A stretch of 64,000 nucleotides of DNA from Prevotella nigrescens (lineage in GTDB: Bacteria; Bacteroidota; Bacteroidia; Bacteroidales; Bacteroidaceae), in NCBI RefSeq assembly GCF_031191185.1, contig NZ_CP133465.1, forward strand, positions 1,050,001 to 1,114,000, in the 5' to 3' direction. This document shows, piece by piece, positions 11,511-61,162 of the stretch. Both the position numbers and the translations under genes were made by a program. The notes beneath the pieces were generated by a model, which was not told where the DNA came from, searched no databases, and saw only the letters and a list, made by a program, of their open reading frames with translations. The number at the start of each line of letters is the position of its first letter. Positions within the stretch are counted from its first letter, which is position 1.

Positions 11511-11642
11511 TATCAGCGCATTGTAAAAACCGTTGTTTCGCATCACAAAAGCGGCTCTTTTGCACGGCAAAAGAGTGGTTTTTGGCGCACCAAACAATGG
11601 TTTTTGAGCCGCAAAACAGCCTCTATCGTTTTTCGTTAGAAT
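11511..11642. repeat. 22-bp-period tandem array A (class I)
   Basis: Six contiguous 22-bp units begin at 11511, 11533, 11555, 11577, 11599 and 11621. The four central units share a TTTTG-type run, 4-6 variable bases and a CAAA-type run. The unit at 11555 contains a perfect hairpin, CTCTTTTGC with GCAAAAGAG. The array lies between two convergent genes and fills most of the 11446-11809 gap. The motif AATTATCTTTACAAAA overlaps its right edge and recurs at array B. Confidence 0.85.
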
Positions 11643-11719
11643 TATCTTTACAAAATAAGAAGTGTGCTGCGTTATAGAAATCATAGGAGTCCTAAGTATC
11701 CTATGGCATCTAATAAAAC

Positions 11720-11787
11720 AACTCATCGCGCCCTAACCTTCGCAAATTACCAATGAAATAGCGAGAAGATATGGGGCGAGATGAGTT
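11720..11787 (-). terminator. Terminator-like stem after the purine permease operon
   Basis: AACTCATCGCGCCC and GGGCGAGATGAGTT can pair over 14 bp with two mismatches, around a 40-base loop. A T-rich stretch follows on the minus strand. It is a plausible end for the five-gene minus-strand run. Confidence 0.45.
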
Positions 11788-11809
11788 GGACTATGGTGTT
11801 GCGAGGGGG

Positions 11810-13111
11810 TTATCCAAATGCAAAGTTGATGATGAAGAGGAGGGAAAGAATACAAAGTGTCCAGTTTAAGTCTTTCCAACGACCTGTACAGAGTTTCATA
11901 ATGGCAAAAGACAGAATGCCAAGACAAATACCATCGGCAATGGAATAGCATAAAACCATCGTTATCATTGTTATGAAAGCAGGGAAAGCCTCGGTCATAT
12001 CCTGCAGGTTTATCTTCTTTACAGAGTCGAGCATCAGCACACCTACCATGATAAGCGCACCACTTGTGGCTGCACTTGGTATGAGCAAGAAGATAGGAGA
12101 GAGGAACAAAGAGAGTAAGAACATACCGCCTACAACAAGCGAAGTTACACCCGAACGACCGCCTTCGGCTATTCCGCTTGCGCTTTCTATATAGGTAGAG
12201 ATGGTAGAACTGCCGAGCATGGCTCCGCAAGTAGTACCAATGGCATCGCTCATCATCGCTTCGCTGACACGTGGAATGCTTCCGTCTTCGCGTACGATAC
12301 CCGTTTTTTCAGCCAAACCCATCAGGGTTCCGATGGTATCGAAGATATTGACGATTAGCAATGAGAAGACAACGAGAACTGTTTTAAGGTTCAATAAGCC
12401 AGAAAAGTCGAACTTACAGAAGATGGGTGAAATGTCTTGAGGAGCAGAAACAGGCAGCCAATGGTCGGGAAACATTGTAACACCCATTGGAATACCAACA
12501 ATTGTGGCAACAATAATGCCCCAGAACAGTGCACCTTTCACCTTGCGTGCCATAAGAATACCGCTAAGTAAGGTGGCGAAAATGCCCAATAGGCAAGGGG
12601 CAGTGAAAGCACCCAAGCCCACGAAAGTACCTTCTTTAGCAACAATTATTCCTGCATTTTTAAGACCAATGAAGGCAATGAACATACCGATACCTGCCGA
12701 AATGGCATAGCGTAGGTTGTTTGGAATGGCATTGAATATCATTTCCCGCACGTTGAAGAACGTTATCAAGATGAATACAATGCCCTCGATGAGCAGAATG
12801 GCGAGCGAGTTTTGCCACGAATAGCCCATTGCCTGGCAAAGCGTATAGGCAAAGAATGCGTTGAGTCCCATTGACGGGGCTTGTGCAAAAGGCAACTTTG
12901 CCATGAAAGCAAGTAGCAAGGTTGCAATAGCCGAAGCCAAAGCCGTTGCCGTAAATAGAGCACCTTGACTCATGCCGGTGGACATAAGGATTGACGGATT
13001 CACTGCCAGAATGTAGCTCATCGTGAGGAATGTCGTAACACCAGCTATCAGTTCGGTGCGCAACTTCATTGTTTTAGGGTCGAAACCTAAGGCTTTTTCC
13101 AAGATTTTCAT
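11810..13111 (-). CDS. Purine (guanine/hypoxanthine-type) permease, NCS2/AzgA family
   Basis: A 433-residue inner-membrane protein with 12-14 membrane segments. The start GFDPKTMKLRTELIAGVTTF, the FAQAPSMGLNAFF motif and ASGIAEGGRSG are diagnostic of the AzgA-like branch, which imports adenine, guanine or hypoxanthine with protons. It follows nudC by 27 bp and ends the run that contains a 5'-nucleotidase. The base specificity cannot be read from sequence. Confidence 0.9.
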   Translation of the reverse strand: MKILEKALGFDPKTMKLRTELIAGVTTFLTMSYILAVNPSILMSTGMSQGALFTATALASAIATLLLAFMAKLPFAQAPSMGLNAFFAYTLCQAMGYSWQNSLAILLIEGIVFILITFFNVREMIFNAIPNNLRYAISAGIGMFIAFIGLKNAGIIVAKEGTFVGLGAFTAPCLLGIFATLLSGILMARKVKGALFWGIIVATIVGIPMGVTMFPDHWLPVSAPQDISPIFCKFDFSGLLNLKTVLVVFSLLIVNIFDTIGTLMGLAEKTGIVREDGSIPRVSEAMMSDAIGTTCGAMLGSSTISTYIESASGIAEGGRSGVTSLVVGGMFLLSLFLSPIFLLIPSAATSGALIMVGVLMLDSVKKINLQDMTEAFPAFITMITMVLCYSIADGICLGILSFAIMKLCTGRWKDLNWTLCILSLLFIINFAFG

Positions 13112-13138
13112 AGGTCTTTAAAGTTTTTATTTTGATTA

Positions 13139-13921
13139 TTATTTGTTGTCGTTCGTGTTCTTAAGCCAATTGTCTATCAGCATTCGGGCTATTGAAAGCT
13201 TCTCGGGCAAGGTGGGCAGATTGTCTTTTCTGAACCAGCTGCCCTTGCAAAGCTCGCTCCATTGCAAATGTATTTCGCCTCCGGCGTAGTCGGCGTTGTA
13301 GCCCACCATTACGCCACTGGGGTACGGCCACGGCTGCGAACCGAAGTAACGGAGATTGTCTATTCGTATTCCCGTCTCTTCCATAACCTCTCTGTGCACG
13401 GCTTCCTCGAAGGTTTCGCCTGTTTCCACGAAGCCTGCAACTAAGCCGTAGTGGTTGTCTTTAAAGTTATTGGCACGCACCAAGAGTACTTCATCGCCAC
13501 GATGAACCAAGACAATGACGGCTGGCGATACCTGTGGCCACACCTCTTTGCCGCAGTTTGTGCAGCGTTTGGATATTCCGCTGTTCAGCTTCATCGGTGC
13601 TCCGCAAACGCCGCAGAAGCGTGTGTTCTGGTTCCAGTATAGCAGTTCGTGGCATTTTCCTGCTTTCAGATAAAACGCTTGCGGCAGTTTGTAATAGCTG
13701 TTGCGCAGTCCGCACATCTCGAACGAGGGGTTATCGGTCAGCGGCATGTCTATGTTCACCGCCTTAACGTCCGTTCCGTCGGGCATGAGGTCTATATCCA
13801 ATACTTGCGACCATGCTTTCAGTGGGGCAGGACAGTGCTCTGATAAGGGGATAGTATAACCGTCGGCGGTCTTTTCCAATACGATGTCGGTCTTGCAAAA
13901 TACAAACCAATATGACTTCAT
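13139..13921 (-). CDS. nudC: NADH pyrophosphatase / NAD-cap hydrolase NudC
   Basis: A 260-residue Nudix hydrolase that cleaves NADH, and in E. coli also removes NAD caps from RNA. It has the zinc ribbon CGVCGAPM and CTNCGKEVWP near residues 105-130, the Nudix box from GFVETGETFEEAVHREV to EETGI near 165, and the NudC-specific SQPWPYP motif. It sits between a nucleotidase and a purine permease in a closely spaced run, so a part in nucleotide salvage is inferred. Confidence 0.95.
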   Translation of the reverse strand: MKSYWFVFCKTDIVLEKTADGYTIPLSEHCPAPLKAWSQVLDIDLMPDGTDVKAVNIDMPLTDNPSFEMCGLRNSYYKLPQAFYLKAGKCHELLYWNQNTRFCGVCGAPMKLNSGISKRCTNCGKEVWPQVSPAVIVLVHRGDEVLLVRANNFKDNHYGLVAGFVETGETFEEAVHREVMEETGIRIDNLRYFGSQPWPYPSGVMVGYNADYAGGEIHLQWSELCKGSWFRKDNLPTLPEKLSIARMLIDNWLKNTNDNK

Positions 13922-13957
13922 CTTCGTATTTTTTCCTTTCCTTGTTATGTCTTTGGC

Positions 13958-15715
13958 TTATTCTCCGAACAGTATTTTGCGGTCTCGGGCAGCAGCCTTG
14001 TCGGTCCATTCCGTAGGTACGAACTTCCAGTTATGATTGGGTTGTGGATTCAATGTTCCCGCTTTCTTGATTTCTTCCATAAGATAATGGCGTTGGTCGC
14101 GCTCGCTTCGCCATACAATGCGGCTCTTCAGCTGCTCTTGCGGAATGCCTGCGCCCTTGGTAAGGAGCTCTCCTCCGCCATTGCCGCGATAGCTGTTTAC
14201 GGCTACCTTATAGTATTTTGTTTCGTCGAAAGGCTGTCCGTTGCTCATTCTTAGTATGTTTACCTTCTGCCCGTAAGGCTTTGTAACGTCCACTTCGTAG
14301 TCAATTCCTGCAGCAGAGTCGAAGTTGAACGAGAAGTTTTTAAAGCCCAAGCGTTGCGAATCGTCCCTTGTGTCTTCCGAAAGCAACAGCAAATGGTCGT
14401 CAGCCGACTTCATTGTGTTCACCCAAAGGTTATAGCTCATCTCCAAATAGTTCTTGATTTCCTTGCCTGTCAGCTTCATAATGTAGAGCTGGTTCTCGTA
14501 TTTGTAAAGGCTGAACATATCGCCTACGGTGATTGCACCAGCTTTAATGGACGAGTTGAAGCCCAAAGGAGCATTGAAAGCAATATCTGCTTTCGTGATT
14601 TGAAGCTCTAAATTAAGGATTAAATCGTTGAAGGCAGAGTTGCCAAAGAAGCAGTCTTTCGTGCTGATGGTGTTTTCAAAGCGTCCGATTTCGGTGTTTG
14701 CCCAACCCTTTACTTCGTTTATTTCGTTCTCAAAATGCGCCATAAACGGCTCGTCTATTGCCAAATCAGTTACATTGACTACCTCTCCCGACTTCTTGAT
14801 AACGTTGAAACGTTTGCCATTCTTCGCTTTTTCCTTTGCAGGCGATAAGGTTATGGTTGCCACAGCAACCTTTTGTGCATTGTTGGCAGGGTCGAGACAC
14901 AACACTTCCTTGCCGCTCTTGTTGGTTACAGTTATATTGCGTGGCTTGTGGTCGTGGCCGAAAAACACCACGTCGAAGCCGTCTACCTCTTCCGCAACCC
15001 TCTTTGAAGCGTCCTCAACATAGTTGGGTGTCGTTATTCCACCGTCCCAACCAGAGTGGAAAAGTCCTACGACAACATCGGGGTGCTCGTTTGCCTGCAA
15101 TGCTGCAACGGTCTTTTTTGCCGACGAAACTATGTCTTCGAAGTGCAGTCCCTTCCATAAACCCTCTTCCAACCAATTGGGAATGGCAGGCGTAAGCATA
15201 CCTACGACAGCCACTTTCACGCCGTTTTTCTTCTTGATAATGGTGTAAGGCAGCACGTATGGCTTTTGTGTTTTCGTGTCAATGATGTTTGCTCCCACCA
15301 CCGGACAGTTCAGTTCGCGTATCCATTTGTCGTAAACGGTGTGCCCAGTCTCTATATCGTGGTTGCCAACGCTCGATGCATCGTACTTCATAAAGTTCAA
15401 TACGCTGGCAGCAATGTTTTCCTTTTGTGTCTGAATGTAGTTGTAGTAATAACTTATGGGTTGTCCTTGCAGAATGTCGCCGTTATCCAAAAGATACACA
15501 TTTTCTGCGCCTTGCTTCTGTCGTAAATCCTTTATAAAGGTAGCAACCCTTGCCATTGACCCTGCTTTTGGCTTGCGCGTGATGAAGTCGTATGGGAAGA
15601 ACGAACCGTGAACGTCCGATGTTTCTACCAATGTTATTGTTATATCCTTGTTTTGAGCCATTGCTCCAAAACTGCTTAATGCTAATGCCATAAATGCAAA
15701 TAAAACTCTTTTCAT
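13958..15715 (-). CDS. Exported metallophosphatase/5'-nucleotidase, UshA family
   Basis: The 585-residue protein has a signal peptide (MKRVLFAFMALALSSFGAMA). A calcineurin-like domain contains ETSDVHGSF, LDNGDILQG, GNHDIETG and GHDHKPR, the metal-binding blocks. A 5'-nucleotidase C-terminal domain follows from about residue 330, with SSIKAGAITVGD and NSYRGNGGGELL. It probably removes phosphate from nucleotides in the periplasm. nudC starts 36 bp downstream and a purine permease follows, which fits salvage of extracellular nucleotides. Confidence 0.92.
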   Translation of the reverse strand: MKRVLFAFMALALSSFGAMAQNKDITITLVETSDVHGSFFPYDFITRKPKAGSMARVATFIKDLRQKQGAENVYLLDNGDILQGQPISYYYNYIQTQKENIAASVLNFMKYDASSVGNHDIETGHTVYDKWIRELNCPVVGANIIDTKTQKPYVLPYTIIKKKNGVKVAVVGMLTPAIPNWLEEGLWKGLHFEDIVSSAKKTVAALQANEHPDVVVGLFHSGWDGGITTPNYVEDASKRVAEEVDGFDVVFFGHDHKPRNITVTNKSGKEVLCLDPANNAQKVAVATITLSPAKEKAKNGKRFNVIKKSGEVVNVTDLAIDEPFMAHFENEINEVKGWANTEIGRFENTISTKDCFFGNSAFNDLILNLELQITKADIAFNAPLGFNSSIKAGAITVGDMFSLYKYENQLYIMKLTGKEIKNYLEMSYNLWVNTMKSADDHLLLLSEDTRDDSQRLGFKNFSFNFDSAAGIDYEVDVTKPYGQKVNILRMSNGQPFDETKYYKVAVNSYRGNGGGELLTKGAGIPQEQLKSRIVWRSERDQRHYLMEEIKKAGTLNPQPNHNWKFVPTEWTDKAAARDRKILFGE

Positions 15716-15769
15716 ATATATATGTTGTTAAAACGTGCTGCGGAAAAGTGCCGATAACGATGTTACAGC

Positions 15770-17032
15770 CTATCTTGCTTTAAACTTAAACGACGTGTAG
15801 CCCACTAATTTGTCGGTTCTTCCGCCTTGCTCACGATAGTAAACCAATGCCTGATAAGTGTTTTCGGTTTGATAGTAGCTGCCTTCCGTAGGCATGATTT
15901 CGGTTTTGCCGTTTTCGTTCAGTACAATGTATTGATAGCTGTAATAGCCCAATTTCAGTGGAATAACAGTCTGATAGCTTTTCGATTCTTCATCGTAAGC
16001 CATTTTATATTGCGGTAGAAATCTGTCATAAGTCCAATCGCCATTCACGTAAACATCGCCTTTGACAGGTTGCGGACAGCTTAACTGGAAGTGAACCTTC
16101 ATATAGTCGCTTTCCGTATTTATGTGATAGTTGTTCGAATTGCGTATCAAGAACGCTCCGTTCGCATCTTCGTCGTACAGATAGTTTAGCCTTGGCAATG
16201 CGATAAAGGGATAAGCGTGGAAGTCTGAGCCGTCCCAACGTATGCGTTCGATGCCTGTTGAGGCTACATCGGTAGACAAAATCTCGAACTTCCTGTATTC
16301 GTTGCCTGCCCAGAATATGTAGTTGGCATTGTGGCTCCAGCGCAAACCGTCGCTCATAACATATTGCGGCTTTGCATTCCACCGTGCATTGTCCCACCGT
16401 TTGTTCTGCAACAGCACCGTCTTTATTTGTGCCTGCGGGTTCGTTACGTTGTAACTGTTGTACTTCAGTTCCATTTCCACCTGCTGGTGTGCCGTGTTTA
16501 TGGTGGCATCGGTATTGGTTACGACGTTCAAACCTATGCCCATCGACTGCGTGAAAGGCTCTTTCACCATAAAGCAAACCTTTATGGCATCGTTGCCGTC
16601 GTCATCGTAAATTGTAAGCAGATAGTTTCCGGAAATCTTCGGACGGCATACTTCGTTCGGAATGCTGAGATGATAGTGCGTGTAAATGGTATTTGTAAGC
16701 AGCGATTGTTGTACATCGTCTATTGTGTTTCCGTTTGCAAACCCTTCCACATAGTCGCTTTCAAAGAGCGAAGTCGTTGGTCTCCAATCGGCTTCGCAAT
16801 GTTCCAGCTTGTAGGAATAGCGATGATATTCGTGTGTCAGGTCGTCGAAATCGATGTCCAACATGCCGTTTCCCAATTCCATAATGGGCAGAGCGAGCCA
16901 GTCTTTGTTCGCCACGACTTGCAACGACCGTATGTTTTTGTTCAGTATTTCGTGGCGTTGCGCTACGGCAGCCATAGAAAACAGCAATGACAACAGCAGC
17001 AAGACAGTGTTTCTGCCCTTTCTCATACGCAT
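15770..17032 (-). CDS. DUF5103 protein (type IX secretion plug protein domain)
   Basis: A 420-residue exported protein (signal MRKGRNTVLLLLSLLFSMAA, cleaved after VAQ) of the DUF5103 family. Members have been annotated as the type IX secretion system plug protein that closes the translocon. Features include YSYKLEHCEADWRP, the VKGDVYVNGDWTYDRF block near residue 330 and a beta-rich C-terminus. It begins 12 bp after the upstream gene and is 54 bp from the nucleotidase. The window also encodes three type IX cargo-like proteins, which fits such a role. Confidence 0.82.
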   Translation of the reverse strand: MRMRKGRNTVLLLLSLLFSMAAVAQRHEILNKNIRSLQVVANKDWLALPIMELGNGMLDIDFDDLTHEYHRYSYKLEHCEADWRPTTSLFESDYVEGFANGNTIDDVQQSLLTNTIYTHYHLSIPNEVCRPKISGNYLLTIYDDDGNDAIKVCFMVKEPFTQSMGIGLNVVTNTDATINTAHQQVEMELKYNSYNVTNPQAQIKTVLLQNKRWDNARWNAKPQYVMSDGLRWSHNANYIFWAGNEYRKFEILSTDVASTGIERIRWDGSDFHAYPFIALPRLNYLYDEDANGAFLIRNSNNYHINTESDYMKVHFQLSCPQPVKGDVYVNGDWTYDRFLPQYKMAYDEESKSYQTVIPLKLGYYSYQYIVLNENGKTEIMPTEGSYYQTENTYQALVYYREQGGRTDKLVGYTSFKFKAR

Positions 17033-17044
17033 ATATCCTTTCCT

Positions 17045-17473
17045 TTAAGGTAACAGTTTCTTCAAGAACTCGTCGAGGTCTTCCTCTAAACCTGGCAACA
17101 ACTCGTCTCCAGCGATAATCGTATCATCGTCTGCCACATAGAGTTCGGCAATGTTTTCTCCTTCTTCGTCCTCTAAAACCAAGCTATAAGGCTTCATGAT
17201 GCCAAGCCCGTCTATAACATCTTTCAGGTTCAACGCCTCTGCACGGAGCAGTGCAGTAATGTTTTCGTTGAAATTGTTGTCGTTGTTTTCAATCCATTCT
17301 TCAACGACACAGCGTGTTATTTCTTCCCCTTCATCGTTGAAAGCCATAAGGTCTCCACTGAATTGCGACACCCTTAGATGAATGTCGGTCATGGTTGTTG
17401 GTGCTTCCGTAGTAGGAAATTTCTGCGCAATCTTCTTTAGAAAGCGTTCAATTTGTTGCTTGGTCTGTTCCAT
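17045..17473 (-). CDS. Conserved hypothetical acidic protein
   Basis: A 142-residue, strongly acidic, soluble protein with no signal peptide or membrane segment. A short helical start (EQTKQQIERFLKKIAQKF) precedes a mixed alpha/beta body. I recognise it only as a conserved Bacteroidales protein without a known role. It is first in a minus-strand run and ends 12 bp before the DUF5103 gene, so the two are probably co-transcribed. Confidence 0.75.
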   Translation of the reverse strand: MEQTKQQIERFLKKIAQKFPTTEAPTTMTDIHLRVSQFSGDLMAFNDEGEEITRCVVEEWIENNDNNFNENITALLRAEALNLKDVIDGLGIMKPYSLVLEDEEGENIAELYVADDDTIIAGDELLPGLEEDLDEFLKKLLP

Positions 17474-17611
17474 GATAAAAACATTTAAAGAACTTTTGAA
17501 TGCTGTTTTAAACTATGGCAAAGTTAGTAAAACTTTTTATTTATAGGGGTACAATCGCACCTTTTTTAATAAATTAAACCACTTTTATAGCCTTAACTGC
17601 CAATTTCTCAG

Positions 17612-17619
17612 TATCTTTG
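17612..17619 (+). promoter_or_regulatory. Promoter -7 element of galE
   Basis: TATCTTTG 81 bp before the galE start, implying a leader of about 75 bases. The -33 element is not clear. Confidence 0.5.
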
Positions 17620-17699
17620 CAGGCATAAAAACAGAAAACTCTCTCGTTCTTACCGTAAGAAACGAGAAAAAGTTACTTGCAAAACATTTATAAAAAGGT

Positions 17700-18737: not shown

Positions 18738-19003
18738 ACGCTGCCGAAAAGCTCTTCTGCAGGTTTGCTTCCGATGCGTGGTTGCTTCGGTATAACTATG
18801 AAAAAGTCGTTATTTATCGGTGGAAACGGTTTTAATTTGCTTGCTCAAGACAGGTGTAAAGCGACTCTTCAAAGAATAGATAATATAGTAAGAGTATAGA
18901 TTTATCGCGTTCCTGACACCGACAAAGAAGCAGTCTTGCTTAGAAAATATAGTATTCCCAGAAATCTTGTGAACTTTAAAGGGAGATATAGAAAACAGTC
19001 TCG

Positions 19004-19208
19004 GTTTTGTAAAGATAATTCTCTTGAAAAATAATAGCGGCGGTTTCGTATCGTAAAAGCGGTTGTTTTGCATTGCCAAACAACCGCTTTTACGAAGTAA
19101 AACAGCCACTATCGGAATGCAACACAATAGATTTTGCAACAATATTGACAACAAGTAGGTTACAGAAAGTGCTGCCATCATTTTATAAGAAAATTATCTT
19201 TACAAAAC
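19004..19208. mobile_element. MITE-like element with 17-bp terminal inverted repeats
   Basis: GTTTTGTAAAGATAATT at 19004-19020 is the exact reverse complement of 19192-19208, and similarity continues inward for about 20 more bases. The 205-bp interval holds repeat array B and no coding frame of its own. No clear target-site duplication is seen. The same end motif, without the left partner, occurs at array A (11640-11655). A non-autonomous mobile element is the inference; a large stem formed by chance insertion cannot be excluded. Confidence 0.5.
19039..19126. repeat. 22-bp-period tandem array B (class I)
   Basis: Four 22-bp units begin at 19039, 19061, 19083 and 19105, with the same design as arrays A and C. 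Bases 19053-19068 and 19078-19093 form a perfect 16-bp hairpin (GTAAAAGCGGTTGTTT as the left arm). The array lies between the convergent galE and SLC13 genes. Confidence 0.85.
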
Positions 19209-19457
19209 TATAGCCATTTTTCTGCTGAATCATTCTATGTATGCTACGAATATACAGACGAGTCGTAGGTGTGGAATTCCTTCCGTTCTTCATCGCCACG
19301 TTACTTTCTCTTCGGCGTCAGGAACGTGATAAATCATGCCCCTACACGTACAATCCACTCTTTTTCGTGGCTTTTAGCACCTGCCATAAGTAATCAATGA
19401 GAAAGCCGTTTCCCTAATAAAGCTCTGCTGGACCGTCTTTGCACCGAAACAAAACAG
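19209..19457. other. Non-coding stretch with a REP-like segment
   Basis: No gene is seen here. Read on the minus strand, 19320-19352 contains GTAGGGGCATGATTTATCAC, which resembles palindrome-associated intergenic repeats of other genomes, but its complementary arm is absent. The start of the galE-SLC13 gap (18738-19003) shows nothing recognisable. Confidence 0.3.
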
Positions 19458-19491
19458 AAAAGGTCGCAGCCCCGAAAGGTTGCGACCTTTT
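19458..19491 (-). terminator. Terminator of the SLC13 transporter gene
   Basis: AAAAGGTCGCA and TGCGACCTTTT form a perfect 11-bp stem with a 12-base loop and T-runs on both strands, so it can act in either direction. It lies 20 bp after the transporter stop. Confidence 0.8.
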
Positions 19492-19511
19492 ATTCCATGC
19501 ATATGTTTTGA

Positions 19512-28569: not shown

Positions 28570-28741
28570 TGTCATTTAAGACGAACTTATCCGATTGGTG
28601 AAACCTATTCATTCGTCGGTTAAGGCTTATTCAACTGTCTGATGAAAGCTGCCCTCTCGTCTGATAAAATAAAATCAGTCGACTGATTTTTAAAATTGGT
28701 CGACTGTTTTTTCCAAATTAGTCGACTGATTTAAAGTGCCC
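28570..28741. repeat. About 22-bp-period tandem array D (class IV, GTCGACTG core)
   Basis: Eight units begin near 28570, 28592, 28614, 28636, 28658, 28677, 28698 and 28720; six are 22 bp and two are 19 and 21 bp. Each starts with a form of NGTCNGACTG (GTCGACTG in three, GTCTGAT or GTCGGTT in others), and most end AT-rich. GTCGACTG includes a SalI-type palindrome. The array fills most of the gap between the SPOR gene and folE. Confidence 0.7.
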
Positions 28742-29511: not shown

Positions 29512-31632
29512 TTACTTCTTCCAAGCGTCGATGATACCCTTGAAATCGGCAGCTTTCAACGAAGCACCACCTATCAAACCACCATCAATATTAGGCTTTG
29601 AGAATAATTCAGGTGCATTGCTTGCCTTGCAGCTACCACCATAAAGAATGCTTGTATCTTCGGCAGCCTCTTTGCCATACTTCTCTGCTACGATAGAACG
29701 AATGTATGCAAGTATTTCCTCTGCTTGGTCAGATGTTGCAGTCTTTCCTGTTCCGATAGCCCAGATTGGCTCGTAAGCAAGGATAATGTTCTTCCAAGCC
29801 TCTGCGCCAAGATGGAAAACAGAACCTTCGAGTTCAGCCTTCACCACCTCGTTCTGCTTGTTTGCCTCACGCTCTTCCAATGTTTCGCCACAGCAGAAAA
29901 TAACCTTCAAGCCGTTTGCGAGTGCCAATTCTACCTTTTCTTTCAATATTTCGGCTGTTTCGCCATAGTATTGACGGCGTTCAGAGTGTCCGAGAATAAC
30001 ATATTCAGCACCTGTACTCTTCACCATTGCAGCAGAAACCTCACCTGTGTAGGCACCTTTTTCCTTGTTGGCACAGTCTTCTGCACCAAGCTTTACCAAG
30101 TCCTTGTCCAACACGTTGGCAACGCTTGCCAAGTGAATAAAAGGAGTGCAGATTACAACATCGCAGTTAGGCTTGTCTGCCTTCAAAGCGTTATTGATTT
30201 CTGTTGCTAATGCAACACCTTCTTGCAGGGTTTCGTTCATCTTCCAGTTACCTGCTACAATTTTCTTTCTCATATTTCTTTTACGTTTTAAAAGTTGATA
30301 AAGTTTCCTTTTCTGTTCATTCTTTACGAGCCATTGCTCCTTTTCCTTAATCCACTGCTCGCGCTTCTTCACCCATTTTGTCCACGCCCAGAAGCGGTCG
30401 GCAATAATGAGCAACACGAGTGGCAGCAAGTAGCAAAGCACTATTGTCAGTATTTTCTTCCACGTACTGCTTTCAGGTTCGTGCCCGATGGTGAGCAGCG
30501 ACAAAGGTGCGTTCAATTCTTCCACCTTTGGAATGTCGTTGTGGTTCCACTTGTTTATTATCGTTCCCTTGTACAGCAACACGAGTCCGGGGTTGCTTCT
30601 TATCACGGTTTTCAGCGTCGTACCGTCGGTAGTGTAGAATGGATATTCCGCCCCCGTTATGTCGCGCCAGTGCTTTATGCCCTTCTCGGTGCTCGATGTC
30701 AAGCCGTAGAAAGCATAGCCGTTTTCCTTTGCATATTCGTATATGCCTTCAATATCGCCGAAATTCCTATCTTGTGCTACTTCGAGCAAGGGAGAAACCA
30801 GCAGGAATGTATATCCATCTTTGCTCAATATCTGTTCGGTAAGGTCTTCCCCTGTTTTTTCGTCCGTGATGGAAAAGTCGTGAATGGGTGGTTCGTATCC
30901 TTTCTCTACGACCTCTTGCTTTGTGTCTACAAACACCCATGTGCTGTCGTTGTAGGGATAATTGTTTTCGTTGAACTCTTTCTGAACCCCATTCTTGGTA
31001 CAAATAAATGTTGTTTTATATTTGGTTTGCTTCGCACCTTTGGGTATCTGCATTCCTTTCAGAATGTTCTGACCGATATAATAAGGACGAAAATCGAACA
31101 AAGGTAAATGGTAAAGACTTAACAATGATACTACAACAATGAATATCATCGTGAAGTAAGTAGCTATCCACTGGTTGGTTTTCGAGATGAAACGAACTTG
31201 ATAGAGTGGCCACCGCATAACGACAACAACCGCAGCGAGCAGCACCAAATTCTTCGCAAAGGTCTGACTGTTTGTCAGATGTATGGCATCGCCAAAGCAA
31301 CCGCAGTCTTGAACAGGATTGCTTATGGTGAGCCAGAGCGTTATCAGTGTCATTCCGAGCATCAGCACGAACGACAATTTACTTACCAGACGGCGGCGGA
31401 TTGCCAACAGAAGTAATATTCCGATTGTGAATTCGGCACCCGAAAGCGAGATGGACATCATGAGCTGCACCCAGTCCGGTATCTTTCCTGCCATGCCCAG
31501 TGCCGTCAGGTAGTCGCCTATCTTGTATTGTGAGCCGAGTGGATCTATTGCTTTTACGAAGCCCGAAAAGATAAATGTCAGGGCAAGCAGGAACCGGCAG
31601 ATATTTACTAATGTTGATTTTAGTTTACTCAT
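29512..31632 (-). CDS. tpiA: DoxX/thioredoxin-like membrane protein fused to triosephosphate isomerase
   Basis: One uninterrupted 706-codon frame. Residues 1-453 match the BT_3928-type protein: a DoxX-like four-helix membrane domain ([32 protein letters not shown]), a thioredoxin-like periplasmic region, a further membrane helix near 405-425, then a basic helical linker. Residues 454-706 are a complete triosephosphate isomerase with NWKMN, GHSERR and [11 protein letters not shown]. Elsewhere these are, to my knowledge, neighbouring separate genes. The isomerase could still start at its own ATG (30273), which has no strong ribosome site. The positive-inside linker would place the isomerase in the cytosol. 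A lost stop codon is the likely origin. Confidence 0.88.
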
Positions 31633-32412: not shown

Positions 32413-32544
32413 TATTATTTTTATACACACTAAATAGTAGTACTTAAGTTTAAGTATGTTTGTATTTAATATTAAGTATAATAATTTTTAAATTTAAGTA
32501 TAATTGTATTTAATTTTAAGTACTGCTATTTGACGCCTATAAAA
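32413..32544. repeat. 22-bp-period tandem array G (class III, TTAAGTA)
   Basis: Six units of exactly 22 bp begin at 32413, 32435, 32457, 32479, 32501 and 32523. Four of them end in TTTAAGTA, ATTAAGTA or TTTTAAGTA. It lies in the 615-bp divergent gap (32177-32791) between the DUF1599 promoter and the mutase promoter. The remainder of the gap shows only the two promoters. Confidence 0.85.
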
Positions 32545-39408: not shown

Positions 39409-39540
39409 ATAGTTTGCAATTTTAAGTTCTGATACTACCCGCTTTTTGAAACGATACTACTTTTTTGCAAGAACAATATTTTTCTTTTAAGTAAAACGAT
39501 AGTACTTTTTTCAGAGAACGAACTGTGGATTTGTAAATAA
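39409..39540. repeat. 22-bp-period tandem array F (class II, GATAGTACTTTTTT)
   Basis: Units begin near 39409, 39430, 39452, 39474, 39497 and 39519; four core units are 22, 22, 23 and 22 bp. Core sequence is close to GATASTACTTTTTT followed by GAA, the same class as array E. It lies in the 981-bp gap between the receptor operon and gyrA. Nothing else is recognised in 39170-39408 and 39541-39665. Confidence 0.75.
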
Positions 39541-51429: not shown

Positions 51430-52020
51430 ATGACAGATAAGTACAGAACAGTACATAAAAACACAATTGGCGAGGGGTTTTATTCCGAAAAGAGGAGTAA
51501 ATTCCTCGCCTTTGTGCATCATATAGATTCTGCCGAAGAGGCTTTGGACATCGTAAAGCACTACAAAAAGGAGTTTTACGATGCACGCCACTACTGCTAT
51601 GCCTACCGTTTGGGTGCCGACGGTGCAGAGTTTCGTGCCAACGACGACGGCGAACCATCATCAACGGCAGGTAAGCCCATTCTCGGACAGCTCGTCAGTA
51701 ACGATATTACCAATACTCTGATTTGCGTAATCCGCTATTTCGGCGGTGTAAAACTTGGCACGAGCGGACTGATTGTTGCTTATCGCGAAGCCGCTGCCGA
51801 CGGAATAGCACATTCGAAAATAGAAGAAAAGTTTGTAGAACACATTGTTCGCTACATCTTTTCTTATCCGATGATGAACGATGTTATGAAGATAGTGAAG
51901 GAAATGAATGCCAACATCGTTGAACAAAACTTCGACAACACTTGCGAAATCGTCCTTTCCATTCGTCAGTCACTTGCCGAACAACTCGAAACGCGACTGA
52001 ATAAACTCTCGTTTGAATAG
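51430..52020 (+). CDS. YigZ/IMPACT family protein
   Basis: A 196-residue protein of the UPF0029 family. The N-terminal domain has EKRSKFLAFVH, DARHYCYAYRLG, DDGEPSSTAGKPIL and IRYFGGVKLGTSGLI, the usual signature. A short C-terminal DUF1949-like domain follows from about residue 135. The eukaryotic relative IMPACT regulates translation; the bacterial function is not known. It is 42 bp after the DUF1015 gene. Array E starts 20 bp after its stop. Confidence 0.9.
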   Translation: MTDKYRTVHKNTIGEGFYSEKRSKFLAFVHHIDSAEEALDIVKHYKKEFYDARHYCYAYRLGADGAEFRANDDGEPSSTAGKPILGQLVSNDITNTLICVIRYFGGVKLGTSGLIVAYREAAADGIAHSKIEEKFVEHIVRYIFSYPMMNDVMKIVKEMNANIVEQNFDNTCEIVLSIRQSLAEQLETRLNKLSFE

Positions 52021-52040
52021 GATAAAGTGTTGTCAAAACG

Positions 52041-52304
52041 GTAGTATTTTTCGTGTGAAACAATAATACTTTTTCTCTAAACCAATGGTACTTATTGATT
52101 AAAATGTATGAAGTAGATACATGAAAATAAGTTTACTTTTTTCAGGATTAATATAACTTTTTTAAAGAACTATAGTATGTTCTTAATGGAACGTCCGTAT
52201 ATTTTAGAAAAGAAGTCCGTACTTTTCATGAAAAACGTCCGTACTTTTTGTGTGAAAAGTATATACTTTCTTATAGGAAGTATAATCTTTTTATAAATAA
52301 ATAT
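52041..52304. repeat. 22-bp-period tandem array E (class II), twelve exact units
   Basis: Twelve contiguous units begin at 52041, 52063, 52085, 52107, 52129, 52151, 52173, 52195, 52217, 52239, 52261 and 52283, with no length variation. Most have a T-run at unit positions 7-11 and an A-rich patch near 17-20; the best-preserved four (52173-52260) carry the core CCGTACTTTT or a near relative. It lies in the 719-bp gap between two convergent genes. Apart from the array, 52305-52739 shows no gene or clear terminator. Confidence 0.9.
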
Positions 52305-52739
52305 CAGGTATTTGCGTTCATCACTTCAGTTGTCGTTTTTATGGCAAGTCTGTGTTCTGATGAGATAGTATTCGGTAGTTGTTTCCTGCTCGCGAATGTG
52401 GTAATGCCATACGAATTTTATCTATTTTTTATAATAAAAAATCGAACTAAAATCATTGGTTAATGGAGTTTCGTAGCACCTTTATTTGTTTAATTTGACT
52501 TCGTGTGTTTATCCACTAACTCCATTCATTTCTTGACGAAATACTATGGAGATTTTGCCAAAAGTTTATAAGCTTTTTGGGGGAAACTTATGAGTGCTCG
52601 GGAGGAAATGAATAGAGATACGACAAAAAGTCTATTGCTTCGGTGGAAGAATAGACTATATTTGCATCAGCAACAGATGCTGAATGAGAGAGTGATTAAG
52701 CTGTTAGGTGTTTGTTTGTTGTAATACTTCTGTGGTTTG

Positions 52740-53678: not shown

Positions 53679-53703
53679 ATATATTATCTCGTTTGAATCG
53701 TTT

Positions 53704-54633: not shown

Positions 54634-54657
54634 TTACTGCACAAAAATAATAAAAAA

Positions 54658-54690
54658 AAGCCATTCGGCAATAAACCGAATGGCTTTTTA
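54658..54690 (-). terminator. Terminator of gapA
   Basis: AAGCCATTCGG and CCGAATGGCTT form a perfect 11-bp stem with a 7-base loop. A long T-run follows on the minus strand (A-run at 54652-54659 on plus). Confidence 0.9.
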
Positions 54691-54717
54691 ATATTGTTTT
54701 CTTGTGAAATCGGAAGA

Positions 54718-55743
<1,026 letters not shown>

Positions 55744-55838
55744 TTATTTAAAGTGAATACTAAACTATAATACCTAAAACTTATTGTTACCTAATGTGTG
55801 GTTGTGCGAAAAGTAATATTTTTACCCCTCATATGCTG

Positions 55839-55869
55839 CAAAGTTACAAAAAAGTTCTTATATTTGCAA
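55839..55869 (-). promoter_or_regulatory. Promoter of gapA
   Basis: On the minus strand, TTGC (55869-55866), a 19-bp spacer and TAACTTTG (55846-55839). The leader is about 95 bases. Confidence 0.65.
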
Positions 55870-55981
55870 CCGAAAAGAGTATTAAACATTATTAAATTAA
55901 AAGGTGTTTGCAGGATAACTTGACCTATATTAATAAATAAGATTATTGTTTTCTCTTGCAGCATTTACAAAAAGTAACTTT

Positions 55982-56362
55982 ATGAGTTTCCTTAAAGAAT
56001 TTAAAGAATTTGCCATGCGTGGTAACGTAATGGACATGGCTGTTGGTGTTATCATTGGTGGTGCGTTTGGGAAGATTGTATCTTCGTTGGTAGATGATAT
56101 TATGATGCCGATTATCGGTGTGCTGACGGGCGGCATAGACTTTAGTAAAATAAGCTTAATGGTAGGCGATGCAGAAGTTAAATATGGCATGTTCATTCAG
56201 AACATCATCGATTTCCTTATTATCGCAATCTGCATCTTTGTGATGATTAAAGCCATGAATAGTTTGTCTACTAAGAAGAAAGAAGAGTCTGCAGCTCCTG
56301 CAGAACCTTCAAACGAAGAGAAATTGCTAACCGAAATTCGCGATTTGTTGAAGAATAAATAA
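55982..56362 (+). CDS. mscL: Large-conductance mechanosensitive channel
   Basis: The 126-residue inner-membrane channel opens under membrane tension to release solutes after osmotic down-shock. It begins [20 protein letters not shown], followed by [19 protein letters not shown] for helix 1 and a second helix near residues 75-95. The basic C-terminal bundle with [11 protein letters not shown] ends EIRDLLKNK. The start MSFLKEF is the family start; an in-frame ATG 12 codons earlier is rejected. Confidence 0.96.
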
Positions 56363-56440
56363 TGAAAATGAACTTATGGTAGCAGGTTGTAAAGTTGTCT
56401 GCGGAAGCATCATAAGCTTTCGGAATGGGCAATATAAAAC

Positions 56441-56474
56441 ACCAAAGGCGCATTGAATAGGATGCGCCTTTGGT
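56441..56474. terminator. Bidirectional terminator between mscL and guaA
   Basis: ACCAAAGGCGCAT and ATGCGCCTTTGGT form a perfect 13-bp stem around an 8-base loop. It can serve both convergent genes. Confidence 0.85.
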
Positions 56475-56531
56475 ATTATTTGTAGTTTGTTAATACAATA
56501 TTATATTTATCGTTTCTTATACTTTAGATCG

Positions 56532-58073
56532 CTATTCCCACTCAATGGTTGCAGGTGGCTTTGAAGAAATATCGTAGCAAACGCGGTTTACCCCCTTTAC
56601 TTTATTGATGATTTCGTTTGAAACTTTTGCCATAAAGTCGTAAGGCAGTTGCGCCCAGTCGGCAGACATGGCATCGGTGCTGGTTACGGCACGCAAGGCA
56701 ACAGGGTGCTCGTAGGTGCGTTCGTCGCCCATAACGCCTACACTGCGGATTGTAGACAGCAGAACGGTACCAGCTTGCCATACTTTATCGTAGAGAACTT
56801 CGCCGTCTTCGCAAACGTAGTGCTGCATGTTCTCGATGTAAATGTCGTCAGCATCTTGCAGAATGCGTACCTTTTCGCGGGTAATATCGCCAAGAATGCG
56901 CACTGCCAAGCCTGGTCCGGGGAATGGGTGGCGCTTGATGAGGCGTTCAGGCATGCCCAATTCGTACCCCACACGGCGCACTTCGTCTTTGAAAAGCCAT
57001 TGTAACGGTTCGCAAAGCTTCAGATCCATTTCCTTAGGAAGTCCTCCCACGTTGTGGTGACTCTTGATAACCATGCCCGTAATGCTTAGACTTTCGATGC
57101 GATCGGGGTAGATTGTGCCTTGTGCCAACCACTTTGCATCGGTTATTTTCTTAGCTTCGGCATTGAAAACCTCTACGAAATCGCGACCGATAATCTTGCG
57201 TTTCTGCTCTGGGTCGGTAACTCCGGCAAGGTCGGCAAAGAACTTTTCCGATGCATCAACGCCGATAACGTTCAGCCCTAAACCTTCGTAAGCCTCCATT
57301 ACCTTCGCAAACTCATTCTTGCGGAGCATGCCGTGATCTACGAAAATGCAGGTAAGGTTCTTTCCGATGGCACGATTGAGCAGGGTAGCGCATACCGAAG
57401 AATCGACACCACCTGATAAACCGAGTATCACGCGGTCGTTTCCTAACTGTTCTTTCAGTTCTTTCACGGTTGTTTCCACATACGAGGCGGGGCTCCATTC
57501 TTGCTTGCTGCCGCAGATATCCACTACGAAATTCTTTAGAAGCAGAGTTCCCTGTGCAGTGTGGAAGACCTCCGGGTGAAACTGGACTGCCCACAAAGGT
57601 TGCGTCGTTGAGGCGTAAGCTGCAAACTTTACATCACTTGTTGAGGCGATAGTCTTGCAGTCGGAGGGAATGGCAGTAATGGTATCGCCGTGGCTCATCC
57701 ATACTTGTGAGTTCTTGTCGAAGCCGTAGAACAACGGATTTTCCGTATCTACAGTTGCCAAGTTAGCGCGTCCATACTCGCGTGTACCCGTTTGTTCTAC
57801 CTTGCCACCGTTCTTGTGCGAGATGTATTGTGCACCGTAGCAGATACCAAGTACAGGAACTTTGCCTACAAACTGGCTTAAATCCACTTGGAACGCTTCT
57901 GGATCGTGAACCGAATAGGGCGAACCTGAAAGGATAACGCCTATCACCGACGGGTCGTCTTTGGGGAACTTGTTGTATGGAAGTATCTCACAGAACGTGT
58001 CTAATTCACGCAATCGGCGACCAATTAGCTGGGTTGTCTGTGAGCCGAAATCCAAGATGATGATTTTTTGCAT
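56532..58073 (-). CDS. guaA: GMP synthase (glutamine-hydrolysing)
   Basis: The 513-residue enzyme aminates XMP to GMP. A class I glutamine amidotransferase domain comes first (LGICYGAQY with the catalytic Cys, QFHPEVFHT), then the ATP pyrophosphatase domain with LSGGVDSSV near residue 220. The C-terminal dimerisation domain ends in KPPATIEWE. It starts 46 bp after the MurU-like gene on the same strand, in a tract rich in AAC trinucleotides. Confidence 0.97.
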
Positions 58074-58119
58074 ATTCTGTATGTTGTTGTTGTTTCTGTT
58101 CTTTTGTTGTTGTTATTGC

Positions 58120-58917
58120 CTAATAGCCTAATTGTTGTGCAAAGGCGTCGGCTTCGGAGAGCGTGTCCAACTTGCCGACGTCCATAAGTTTAAGGTCGTT
58201 TTTCACCTTTCCAACGAAGTGTAAGTCCTTTGCGTACTTCAGATAAAAGTCCATTATGGGGAACTTTTCGGGACATTCGTTCATCGTTTCGAATATTTTG
58301 TTTCCCACAACGTGTATTCCAGAGAAAGCAAAAAGCGTGTAGCCGTGTTGTTCGTTGGTAGCTTTGTCGTTCTTGTAAGGCTGCGTAAAGGTGAGTTCAT
58401 GCAAGGTTTCGTAAGGCGATTTCACTTCTCCGGTGTCTACATTTGTCCACCCCACCAAGCGCATATCTTTATTGAAGATAAGATAACGCTTTGTTTTTCT
58501 TGGGCTTACAAGTAGAACTGCATCAACCTTTTGCTCTGTTTCTGCTTCGCAAGCGTAATCGTATAACGCGCGTAAGTCTACGTTGCTAAGTATATCTACG
58601 TTATGAATGAGTACAGGTTCGTTCGTATTGAAAAGCGGTGTTGCCTTTTTTATTCCGCCACCTGTATCGAGCAGCATTTCCGATTCGTCGGAAATGCGAA
58701 TGTCTGCACCGAAATTGTTTTGTCGTAAATATTCAATGATTTGATTGGCAAAGTGGTGTACGTTCACTACAATGCGCCGGCTGCCTGCTGAAACCAGTCG
58801 TCTGACAATGTGTTCAATGAGCGGTTTGCCCCCAACCCTTACCAATGCTTTGGGCATTCTGTCGGTAAGTGGTTTCAGACGTGTGCCAAGTCCGGCGGCA
58901 AAAATCATTGATTGCAT
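58120..58917 (-). CDS. Sugar-1-phosphate nucleotidyltransferase, MurU-like
   Basis: The 265-residue protein has the nucleotidyltransferase signature FAAGLGTRLKPLTDRMPKAL at the N-terminus, GGKPLIEH and HNVDILSNVDL with the metal-binding Asp. Size and motifs match MurU, which makes UDP-MurNAc from MurNAc-1-phosphate. The gene upstream codes for an AmgK-like kinase, the usual partner, which strengthens the call. Another sugar phosphate is possible. It has its own promoter. Confidence 0.85.
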   Translation of the reverse strand: MQSMIFAAGLGTRLKPLTDRMPKALVRVGGKPLIEHIVRRLVSAGSRRIVVNVHHFANQIIEYLRQNNFGADIRISDESEMLLDTGGGIKKATPLFNTNEPVLIHNVDILSNVDLRALYDYACEAETEQKVDAVLLVSPRKTKRYLIFNKDMRLVGWTNVDTGEVKSPYETLHELTFTQPYKNDKATNEQHGYTLFAFSGIHVVGNKIFETMNECPEKFPIMDFYLKYAKDLHFVGKVKNDLKLMDVGKLDTLSEADAFAQQLGY

Positions 58918-58939
58918 TGTCTTCTGGTTTTAATGTGTG

Positions 58940-58970
58940 CAAATTTACTAATTAAATCTCAGACAGCAAA
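58940..58970 (-). promoter_or_regulatory. Promoter of the MurU-like gene
   Basis: On the minus strand, TTTG (58970-58967), a 19-bp spacer and TAAATTTG (58947-58940), 22 bp before the start codon. Confidence 0.75.
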
Positions 58971-59030
58971 GAAATAAACTTATAACCTTAGCTGTTCTTT
59001 TCAGTTGCCATGGTGAAGTTTTACCTTCGC

Positions 59031-60584
59031 CTAAGTACGCTTAGTTTTCGCTTCCAGTACTTGTTCTATGCCTTGTTCGCGATGCGTAATGCGCACTTCG
59101 ATGCCGTATTTCTTATTCAGATGTTCTGCTAAATGCTGGGCACAGTACACGGAACGGTGCTGTCCGCCCGTACAACCGAACGAGAACATTAGGTTGGTGA
59201 AGCCACGTTGCATATAGCGTTCCACGTGGTGATCGGCGAGTTTGTAGACCGGACGAAGAAATTCCAAGATTTCGCCATCGTCTTCCAAGAAGCGGATAAC
59301 AGCCTCGTCAAGTCCTGTTATCTTCTTATAAGGTTCGTAACGACCGGGGTTGTGCGTGCTGCGACAGTCGAAAACGTAGCCGCCGCCATTGCCCGAAGTG
59401 TCTTCAGGAATGCCTTTCCGGAACGAAAAGCTAAACACCCGCACCACCAAGGGACCTTTTCCATCGTACTTGGAGAAGGTTGCGGGACCGTCCAATGGGT
59501 TTGCCTTGTACACATCTTTCTCAGCAACCTTGTAACCGTCGGTTCTGTTCTTTGCAGGTTGTTCGATAAGAGCGAACTGTGGTAGCTGTGTCAGCCTGCG
59601 CAACATATCCAGCAGGTACGGATAAGGGAACATTTTCTCGCCCAAATCCAGTACGTCGCGGAGGTTCTGAATGGCTGGCGGAATGGAATCGATAAAGTGT
59701 TTCTTGCGTTCAAAATAGCCACGGAAGCCGTATGCACCCAATACTTGCAGCAAACGGAAGAGCACAAACAGCGAAAGACGGTTTACAAAATGGCGTTTCG
59801 ACGGCACTTCGGTAAAATGCTTCAGGCTGTTATAATACTCGAAAACCAACTCGCGACGCAGTTTGAACGAATATTTTGCACTTGCCTGCCACAGAAACGA
59901 AGCAAGGTCGTAGTAGTAAGGACCTTTTCGTCCACCTTGGAAATCAATGAATTGTGGCTTTCCGTTGGCATCGAGCATAATGTTCCGTGCTTGGAAGTCG
60001 CGATAAAGAAAGGCGTCCATCTTCTCCGATGTAAGGTCTTTTGCAAACATTCGGAAGTTGGCTTGTAGCTTTAGTTCATGAAAGTCAAGTTCTGTTGCTT
60101 TCAGGAAGCAATATTTAAAGTAGTTCAAATCGAAGAGAACGCTTTCTTCGTTAAACTCTGCTTGCGGATAGCAATAGCTGTAATCCAGCCCACGTGAACC
60201 ACGAAGTTGGAAGTTGGGTAGCTCTTTTATCGTCTTGCGCAACAGTTCCTGTTCGGCAAGATTGTAGCGTCCGCCCGCTTCGCGCCCGCCCCGAATAGCA
60301 TCGAAAAGCGATGTTACGCCCAAATCGGTTTGCAAATAGCGTGTTTCATCTTCAGAAACAGCAAGCACATGTGGTACGGGCAGCTGTCGTTTGGCGAAGT
60401 GTTTGGCAAGATAAATAAAGGCATGGTTCTCGTCGCGGCTCGTACCGATGACGCCAATCACCGATTTCCCCTCGTCGTCAGTAAAGCGATAGTACGTCCG
60501 GTTGCTGCCTGCACCAGCCATTTTCTCTATGTTTGCAGGAACATTGCCTGCCCATTGCTTGTATAGTTCTACGAGTTTTTCCAT
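59031..60584 (-). CDS. AmgK-like sugar kinase fused to RapZ C-terminal domain
   Basis: A 517-residue two-domain protein. Residues 1 to about 330 form an aminoglycoside-phosphotransferase-type kinase: GAGSNRTYYRF near the start, YRDFQARNIMLD near 205 (Asp and Asn of the catalytic loop, with Tyr in place of the usual His) and FIDFQGGRKGPYYYDLAS. This matches AmgK, the MurNAc/GlcNAc anomeric kinase. Residues from about 385 match the C-terminal domain of RapZ (FSFRKGIP, FDCRSTHNPGRY, FSFGCTGGQHRSVY), which in E. coli senses glucosamine-6-phosphate; the RapZ ATPase domain is absent. The MurU-like gene follows 113 bp later. Confidence 0.88.
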   Translation of the reverse strand: MEKLVELYKQWAGNVPANIEKMAGAGSNRTYYRFTDDEGKSVIGVIGTSRDENHAFIYLAKHFAKRQLPVPHVLAVSEDETRYLQTDLGVTSLFDAIRGGREAGGRYNLAEQELLRKTIKELPNFQLRGSRGLDYSYCYPQAEFNEESVLFDLNYFKYCFLKATELDFHELKLQANFRMFAKDLTSEKMDAFLYRDFQARNIMLDANGKPQFIDFQGGRKGPYYYDLASFLWQASAKYSFKLRRELVFEYYNSLKHFTEVPSKRHFVNRLSLFVLFRLLQVLGAYGFRGYFERKKHFIDSIPPAIQNLRDVLDLGEKMFPYPYLLDMLRRLTQLPQFALIEQPAKNRTDGYKVAEKDVYKANPLDGPATFSKYDGKGPLVVRVFSFSFRKGIPEDTSGNGGGYVFDCRSTHNPGRYEPYKKITGLDEAVIRFLEDDGEILEFLRPVYKLADHHVERYMQRGFTNLMFSFGCTGGQHRSVYCAQHLAEHLNKKYGIEVRITHREQGIEQVLEAKTKRT

Positions 60585-60605
60585 TACTCTGTAAATGTTT
60601 CTCCT

Positions 60606-60848
60606 TTAGTTTGTGCCTTCTTCTTTATTTTCTTTTCCTTCTTTTGTATCCCGTTCTATTTCTTTTAAAATATCTTCAGCCTGTTTCTCACCTTGTTTTT
60701 TCATTTCGTATTCGCGTAAGAAACCATCAATAAGCAACAAGATAACCATTATACCCGAAGTTATCAAGATACTTCTTGTTAAAAAGTAAAGTCCCCCTAT
60801 GATGCCGAAGAAGACTATAAACATTTTCCAATTAAGTTTTATCTTCAT
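60606..60848 (-). CDS. Small membrane protein of unknown function
   Basis: An 80-residue protein with two closely spaced hydrophobic stretches (MFIVFFGIIGGLYFL and ILITSGIMVILLLIDGFL). A charged, Lys/Glu-rich C-terminal tail (EYEMKKQGEKQAEDILKEI) is probably helical. It ends 21 bp before the AmgK-RapZ gene on the same strand, so it may be co-transcribed with it. I do not recognise the family. Confidence 0.7.
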   Translation of the reverse strand: MKIKLNWKMFIVFFGIIGGLYFLTRSILITSGIMVILLLIDGFLREYEMKKQGEKQAEDILKEIERDTKEGKENKEEGTN

Positions 60849-60852
60849 GCTA

Positions 60853-60860
60853 CAAAGTTA
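60853..60860 (-). promoter_or_regulatory. Promoter -7 element of the small membrane protein gene
   Basis: TAACTTTG on the minus strand, only 4 bp before the start codon. A nearly leaderless message would result, or the true start is slightly further in. Confidence 0.35.
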
Positions 60861-61030
60861 CTCAAAAGTTTTTAGAAATTGCGAAATACCCCCAGAATTA
60901 TTACTATTTGCAAAGGTGAGACGTAGTAGCAAGTGTCCTGTAACATAAATAAGAAATGTAAAAAAGCAGTATAAATAAAATGATAAATATGCGTGTGCAT
61001 AATGGTTTAGTTATCAACGTATTACAGTAT

Positions 61031-61162
61031 CTACTTTTGGACATCGTAAAAAGCCTGTTTTGCAATGCAAAACCCACCCTTTGGGGCGATAAAAACCACT
61101 GTTTTAGTTCTCAAAACCCACCCTTTTGAGAAGTAAAAGCCTTGTTGTATAATTATGATACC
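61031..61162. repeat. 22-bp-period tandem array C (class I)
   Basis: Six exact 22-bp units begin at 61031, 61053, 61075, 61097, 61119 and 61141. The first five carry a TTTTG, TTTT or CTTTG run near position 6-9 and a TAAAA or CAAAA run near 16-20. It lies in the 530-bp divergent gap 60849-61378, which otherwise holds two promoters and one hairpin. The unit at 61053 contains TTTTGCAATGCAAAA, a near-perfect palindrome. Confidence 0.85.

Follow-up and report, generated by a model that had tools for sequence, protein, structure and literature searches.

Seven intergenic arrays in the window

The window, a 64,000-nucleotide stretch of the Prevotella nigrescens genome (GCF_031191185.1, contig NZ_CP133465.1, positions 1,050,001 to 1,114,000), contains seven degenerate tandem arrays in the spaces between its genes, here called A to G (Table 1). 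The original prediction had assigned all seven a period of 22 bp, and among the periods of 14–33 bp that were compared, 22 was the best in each of them. The unit-to-unit identity at lags 22, 44 and 66 was 0.40–0.56, against 0.24–0.36 in dinucleotide shuffles (z 3.9 to 9.5). The observed identity was matched by none of 2000 shuffles for arrays A, B, D, G, E and C and by two for array F, and the intergenic autocorrelation of the window as a whole peaked at lags 22, 44 and 66. Array F was the weakest. Its gap as a whole lacked a lag-22 signal and scored 71 for period 23 vs 62 for period 22, and the array fell below the cut-off of the genome scan described below, so that it is not among the 49 arrays found there. 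Tandem Repeats Finder (TRF) reported a period of 21 for part of array D and part of array E.

The predicted layout stood in part. The bounds first given for A and B were the middles of longer elements (Table 1). A common design, with a T-run near unit positions 6–8 and an A-run near 17–20, was found in B and C and roughly in A and E, but not in D, F and G. Four sequence classes had been proposed; A, B and C did form one family, whereas the similarity of E to F was weak (E-value 6e-4), as was that of F to G (4e-4). In BLAST comparisons, G grouped with four other AT-rich arrays of the same genome, and E with arrays at G000:C2:805165 and 1116920 (G000:C2 being the P. nigrescens contig). Array A contains an inverted repeat (11525–11563 with 11567–11605, 74% complementary). 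Array B has outer arms of 44 nt (19004–19047 and 19165–19208) that are 82% complementary and need not be the ends of the element.

Table 1. Arrays with a 22-bp period in the window (positions are those of the window)
Array	Description	Positions	Positions first given	Strand	Observation
A	PINSR-like repeat; T4/A4 ladder every 11 bp	11444..11665	11511-11642	+	E-value 2.1e-41 with the profile of G017 copies
B	PINSR-like repeat; ladder and complementary outer arms	18978..19226	19039-19126	-	profile E-value 8.3e-36
C	partial or diverged PINSR-like repeat	60994..61140	61031-61162	+	profile E-value 5.8e-10
D	~8 units of GTCGACTG type	28570..28741		.	the only member of its family in the sample; not present in sister species G017
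E	~12 units of CGTACTTTTT type	52041..52304		.	z 9.5
F	CGTACTTTTT type, in the gap upstream of gyrA	39409..39540		.	2/2000 shuffles
G	TTTAAGTA type, in a divergent gap	32413..32544		.	folds into a single long hairpin, z -7.3

Arrays A, B and C as copies of a dispersed repeat

The dispersed repeat to which arrays A, B and C belong is about 200 bp long and is built as a T4-N7-A4-N7 ladder, in which runs of four T or four A recur as rungs every 11 bp, separated by 7-base words from a small set. In the genome of a sister species (G017, probably P. intermedia or close kin), most of 19 aligned copies had the same build, in which the left part resembles GTGTAAATATTTTTC and the right part AATTATCTTTACAAAA; the flanks of a few were different. 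By gyrA, the nearest named relatives are P. pallens and P. aurantiaca, in a listing from which records very close to the window's genome may be missing. A profile of 279 positions was built from 13 G017 copies. At E-values up to 0.01 it matched only the A, B and C elements in the window. The P. nigrescens sample used throughout comprised 854 kb in two blocks, G000:C2:1-400000 (400 kb, without the window) and 700001-1154000 (454 kb, with the window); it gave 25 matches at E-values below 1e-10, partial matches on the opposite strand included, and the copies covered up to ~265 bp of the profile. In 16 P. nigrescens copies set against the G017 profile, the rung sites differed at a rate of 0.087 and the word sites at 0.408. 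The ladder pattern occurred at 361 positions in G017 and 104 in P. nigrescens; the reversed pattern, which is not a clean null, matched 95 and 3 times, respectively, and exceeded the pattern itself in G005, G028 and G029.

PINSR is a 188-bp intergenic repeat with 177 and 184 copies in two strains of Prevotella intermedia (Naito et al. 2015, PMC4755523). It is described as also present in P. nigrescens, P. falsenii and P. disiens, as detected by PCR in four related species only, and as having no known function; it is tied to genome rearrangements and lies downstream of tnaA in P. intermedia ATCC 25611 (PMC4755523). The A/B/C family likewise proved to be a dispersed intergenic repeat of about 190 bp that is amplified in what is probably the P. 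intermedia/nigrescens group and associated with a rearrangement. Its length, intergenic position, abundance and host group agree with PINSR, which makes arrays A, B and C very probably PINSR, judged against its published description rather than its sequence, and the earlier view that no known class of element fits all seven needs correcting for these three. Around tnaA, no ladder element was found within ~10 kb in P. nigrescens, and the profile match in G017 (C91:8996-9228) lay ~7.5 kb away. Unlike PINSR, arrays D, E, F and G are of other sequence types, and whereas PINSR was described in four related species, ladders with other words were found here in Prevotella bivia and other Prevotella. 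The term "22-bp" is absent from the main text of PMC4755523, and the text consulted does not mention the A4-N7-T4-N7 ladder or a build of 22 or 11 bp.

The 22-bp register in the P. nigrescens genome

Genes were called with a longest-open-reading-frame heuristic, so some of the gaps are wrong. Against 20 shuffles, the intergenic autocorrelation of the first and second block had z values of 12.0 and 13.6 at lag 22, 8.1 and 8.2 at lag 44, and 8.0 and 13.7 at lag 66; coding DNA showed a slight rise only, at lag 22. The intergenic excess over shuffles on which the original prediction had been staked was thus found. Arrays of period 22 scoring above 100 occurred in 49 of 301 gaps, and each of 26 other periods between 14 and 40 gave 0–8 arrays. 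Period 23 accounted for eight, seven of them one separate family. This family is GC-richer, of GAAGCGACGATTGTCGTAACCCC type, and consists of nearly perfect repeats without dyad symmetry that are dispersed in the genome (G000:C2:19329, 253601, 776735, 952575 and 1030422; also 124601 and 747291).

The 49 period-22 arrays fell into BLAST groups of 27 (the A/B/C type), 5, 3, 3, 2 and 2 and seven singletons, one of which (G000:C2:343690) may be coding. This grouping ruled out a single family and bore out the idea that the 22-bp feature is genome-wide and spans different sequence families. The arrays also lay in gaps of every orientation, in keeping with the claim that they are not confined to promoters or gene ends: convergent, co-directional and divergent gaps held 10, 13 and 4 of the A/B/C-type arrays and 7, 10 and 5 of the other 22, with 63, 162 and 73 such gaps as the baseline. 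The 22-bp observation is solid and is wider than first reported.

A comparable element is BrickBuilt, a 23-nt minisatellite within a miniature inverted-repeat transposable element (MITE) of Porphyromonas gingivalis, to which it was confined in its authors' BLAST search (PMC4596501). Like the arrays described here, BrickBuilt consists of intergenic short-period tandem repeats with imperfect units whose number varies between strains. As described (PMC4596501), it is one family with a leader, a tail and a period of 23, whereas the arrays have a period of 22 and belong to many families, and they were not assigned to it. A literature search that covered titles and the beginnings of abstracts, with subscription journals poorly represented, found no 22-bp rule for Prevotella; within that literature the cross-family rule appears to be new.

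Symmetry, folding and curvature

Dyad symmetry (z>2 against column-permuted copies of the same array) was present in 34 of the 49 period-22 arrays and in none of the eight period-23 arrays. The features that the arrays have in common are this symmetry and the 22-bp register, not a single design of T-run and A-run.

The original prediction had also proposed phased A/T tracts that could give curved DNA. Calculated with a wedge model, predicted curvature exceeded that of shuffles (z>2) in 15 of the 27 A/B/C-type arrays, but in only 4 of the 22 others, compared with 13 of 199 control gaps. The A/B/C ladder resembles phased A-tract DNA in its A/T tracts every 11 bp and, for part of the arrays, in predicted curvature; for most of the other arrays no curvature was predicted. 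Curvature as a common rule was rejected, since it fails outside the A/B/C type.

Many arrays can fold as single strands. The fold z was below -2 in 21 of 27 A/B/C-type and 15 of 22 other arrays vs 42 of 199 control gaps, and ranged from -1.9 (C) to -7.3 (G) in the window. Within arrays, the A4-to-T4 words were reverse-complementary more often than when words were dealt out anew in 200 shuffles: 17 of 196 vs 5.5 expected in P. nigrescens (reached in 0/200 shuffles), 27 of 111 vs 19.8 in G017 (7/200) and 6 of 27 vs 2.4 in P. bivia (2/200). Both observations would fit a function of the arrays as hairpins, whether cruciform or single-stranded, in DNA or RNA; the ends of mRNAs and structures in recombination or replication are examples. 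We consider this unlikely. The T4-to-A4 words had no such excess (10 vs 6.2 in P. nigrescens, 17/200 shuffles; 6 vs 15.5 in G017). The sense strand folded better in 12 of 23 co-directional gaps, i.e., without strand bias, and therefore nothing points to a transcript; nine of the 49 arrays lie in divergent gaps. An Rfam scan of the window at gathering score gave no match and a tRNA scan none either. Hairpins would also leave the register common to unrelated sequences unexplained.

Turnover between sister species

Arrays were gained or lost between the sister species. Array D is absent from G017 (L253), where flanks that are 93% identical meet at one unit of ~20 bp. The units of D diverge among themselves far more than the flanks do between the species, so a loss in G017 is likelier than a recent expansion in P. 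nigrescens. Three of 15 G017 arrays were compared with their syntenic P. nigrescens region. Two were shared: one keeps its rungs while most of its words are replaced, and the other has poorly alignable flanks. The third is absent from P. nigrescens, the gap measuring 308 bp there and 617 bp in G017. In G017 (L241:1244-1501), the sequences that border array E on the left and array G on the right (window positions 52013 and 32656) are brought together around a PINSR-like element. Since these flanks meet there, a breakpoint of rearrangement lies within gaps that hold arrays, as has been stated for PINSR (PMC4755523).

One rival reading is that each family is a non-autonomous mobile or duplicating element (MITE-like), spread by a machinery that favours 22-bp palindromic arrays, with no use to the host. 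The PINSR-like copies are scattered with a fixed architecture, array B has complementary outer arms, the ladder of the 617-bp gap is missing from P. nigrescens, and near-identical dispersed ladders were found in G190, G101 and G127. We nevertheless regard dispersal as the sole explanation as rather unlikely. The comparison of G017 with P. nigrescens yielded neither a clean empty site nor a target duplication, PINSR is without terminal inverted repeats in its published account (PMC4755523), and the rule covers unrelated families and old, diverged arrays.

The REP (repetitive extragenic palindrome) and BIME (bacterial interspersed mosaic element) sequences of RAYT (REP-associated tyrosine transposase) proteins are dispersed intergenic palindromes that occur in clusters. 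The arrays share this scattered, clustered, palindromic character; unlike REP/BIME, they keep a 22-bp register across unrelated sequences. A REP/RAYT origin was rejected for P. nigrescens, where a search limited to the Y1 (IS200-type) transposase domain PF01797, and so not extended to other transposases, gave no match; the domain was detected in five of 14 control genomes.

A mutational by-product, with arrays made and repaired without selection as quasi-palindromes undergo template switching and replication slippage, is an improbable source of the whole pattern. Complementary words within arrays are an expected trace of template switching, array D differs by whole units between the sister species, and young-looking arrays exist, such as one in Prevotella veroralis with three identical units and near-copies. 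Slippage, however, has no reason to pick 22 in one genus, and gives none for rungs that are kept while the words change.

Distribution in Prevotella and beyond

In a first draw of genomes, the ladder pattern was found in 13 of 36 genomes of the genus and 0 of 24 order-level genomes. A second draw, which had P. nigrescens and G004 in common with the first, gave 6 of 15 for the genus and 3 of 136 for other genera, the latter with one match each. The palettes of words varied by species, and AAAA-GRTNAYC-TTTT was favoured in P. bivia.

Other units in the 22-bp register were found as well. Up to 94 loci of other Prevotella contained 28 period-22 arrays with other units and a score above 100, of which 13 had a dyad z>2, and eight other periods gave 0–9 arrays each. 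In the gaps upstream of gyrA, 22 was the best of 27 periods at 17 of 74 loci, the next period being best at six. The units there differ between species, and the window locus, where 23 was best, is counted among the 74. These loci come from the best 80 of 434, and orthologous gaps are shared, so that the counts are not independent. At the best 80 loci, lag 21 (z 12.9) came close to lag 22 (z 14.5), and lag 21 was raised outside the genus too (z 4.0 and 6.7), probably owing to short genes left in the gaps; array counts are the cleaner measure here.

With a scan length of 88 bases and a score above 100, period-22 arrays were present in 38 of 315 gaps in P. nigrescens, 20 of 69 in G017, 11 of 27 in G012, 11 of 115 in P. 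bivia and 26 of 447 at the gyrA loci. The stretches of G017 and G012 and those of P. bivia at L069-L072 had been picked near ladder matches; those of P. nigrescens, the gyrA loci and P. bivia L210-L221 had not. Five other genomes of the genus had period 22 in 3 of 93 gaps and period 21 in five. Outside the genus, one of 31 gaps in other genera of the family and none of 153 in other families of the order contained such an array. Other Prevotella show the period as well, with unrelated units, though not in every genome.

Two different Prevotella have arrays of a common GCAAAGCTTTGC palindrome every 22 bp (L091:5925 and L092:19043). A GATATC-type 22-bp array in Prevotella pallens (L073:197) is of one kind with those at G000:C2:882647 and 1005361, at a place that may not be orthologous. 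A tandem array in P. bivia (L069:4956) has a 66-bp unit and scores at many short periods.

A protein lattice as a tentative explanation

Because unrelated sequences share the 22-bp register, and because it is nearly confined to the genus in our sample, we infer that something must see it. A protein-binding or organising role, as originally suggested, is our best guess, with the protein a candidate only. We hypothesize, with rather less than even confidence, that the arrays form lattices in the DNA itself, made of 11-bp half-sites to which a DNA-binding protein of the Prevotella lineage would attach. A lattice would be a run of ~4–12 mostly dyad-symmetric units in 22-bp register, and forming it a habit of Prevotella; in the A/B/C type, the A4-N7-T4-N7 ladder would represent 11-bp half-sites in alternating orientation. 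The putative protein, or paralogues with differing sequence preferences, would bind as dimers, each subunit covering 11 bp. About 11 bp per turn is commonly quoted for negatively supercoiled DNA in vivo, which makes 22 bp two turns. Since 11 bp is close to such a turn, successive dimers would lie on one face of the helix and could pack side by side, bending or coating the gap. Base changes between the contacts would be tolerated and changes of spacing would not, and the A/T rungs of PINSR may be minor-groove or bending contacts. Under this model the protein would bind co-operatively and might affect chromosome structure or gene expression. In its favour are that 22 was unique among 27 periods, that dyads mark 34 of the 49 period-22 arrays and none of the eight of period 23, that rungs are kept while words change, and that the register is common to unrelated units across the genus, with few or no such arrays outside it. 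The lack of strand bias in folding and the predicted curvature of 15 of 27 A/B/C-type arrays also speak for it.

Several observations weigh against it. Fifteen of the 49 arrays had no significant dyad, and reverse-complementary words within arrays are not needed by a lattice of dimers. Insertions and deletions were fewer in the ladders (3 at 1563 sites) than in the arms (11 at 1754), which is suggestive only. At least the lattice of array D is dispensable, because it is missing from G017. Finally, the 22-bp rule is not universal in Prevotella, because G009 favours 14 and 21, and G016 and G029 have no 22 excess; in the intergenic DNA of G009 (L188-L191), lags 14, 21, 28 and 42 were favoured over 22.

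The three alternatives discussed above are live and may combine with one another: PINSR has clearly been multiplied, and the complementary words could have come from template switching. Under the lattice hypothesis, a further-reaching version seems doubtful to us, though conceivable. Prevotella chromosomes would carry at least on the order of a hundred lattices, defined by their register and symmetry (dyad units every 22 bp), while the letters could change freely from locus to locus and from species to species. The reader would be an undescribed, lineage-specific family of nucleoid-associated or regulatory proteins with one subunit per supercoiled turn, and PINSR would be the most amplified family of sites. 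The ladder and the 22-bp rule would give PINSR, on record since 2015 without a function (PMC4755523), an anatomy and a larger class to belong to. They also lead to a testable claim, namely that an 11/22-bp register is read in Prevotella by something for which sequence is largely immaterial. Members of this genus are common in the rumen and in the mouth, gut and vagina of humans. If the reader is a protein, the lattice would be of a kind new for bacteria, serving regulation or the organisation of the chromosome.

Apart from the arrays, window positions 29512-31632 encode a 706-aa protein with a MauE-type N-terminal domain and a triosephosphate isomerase domain.

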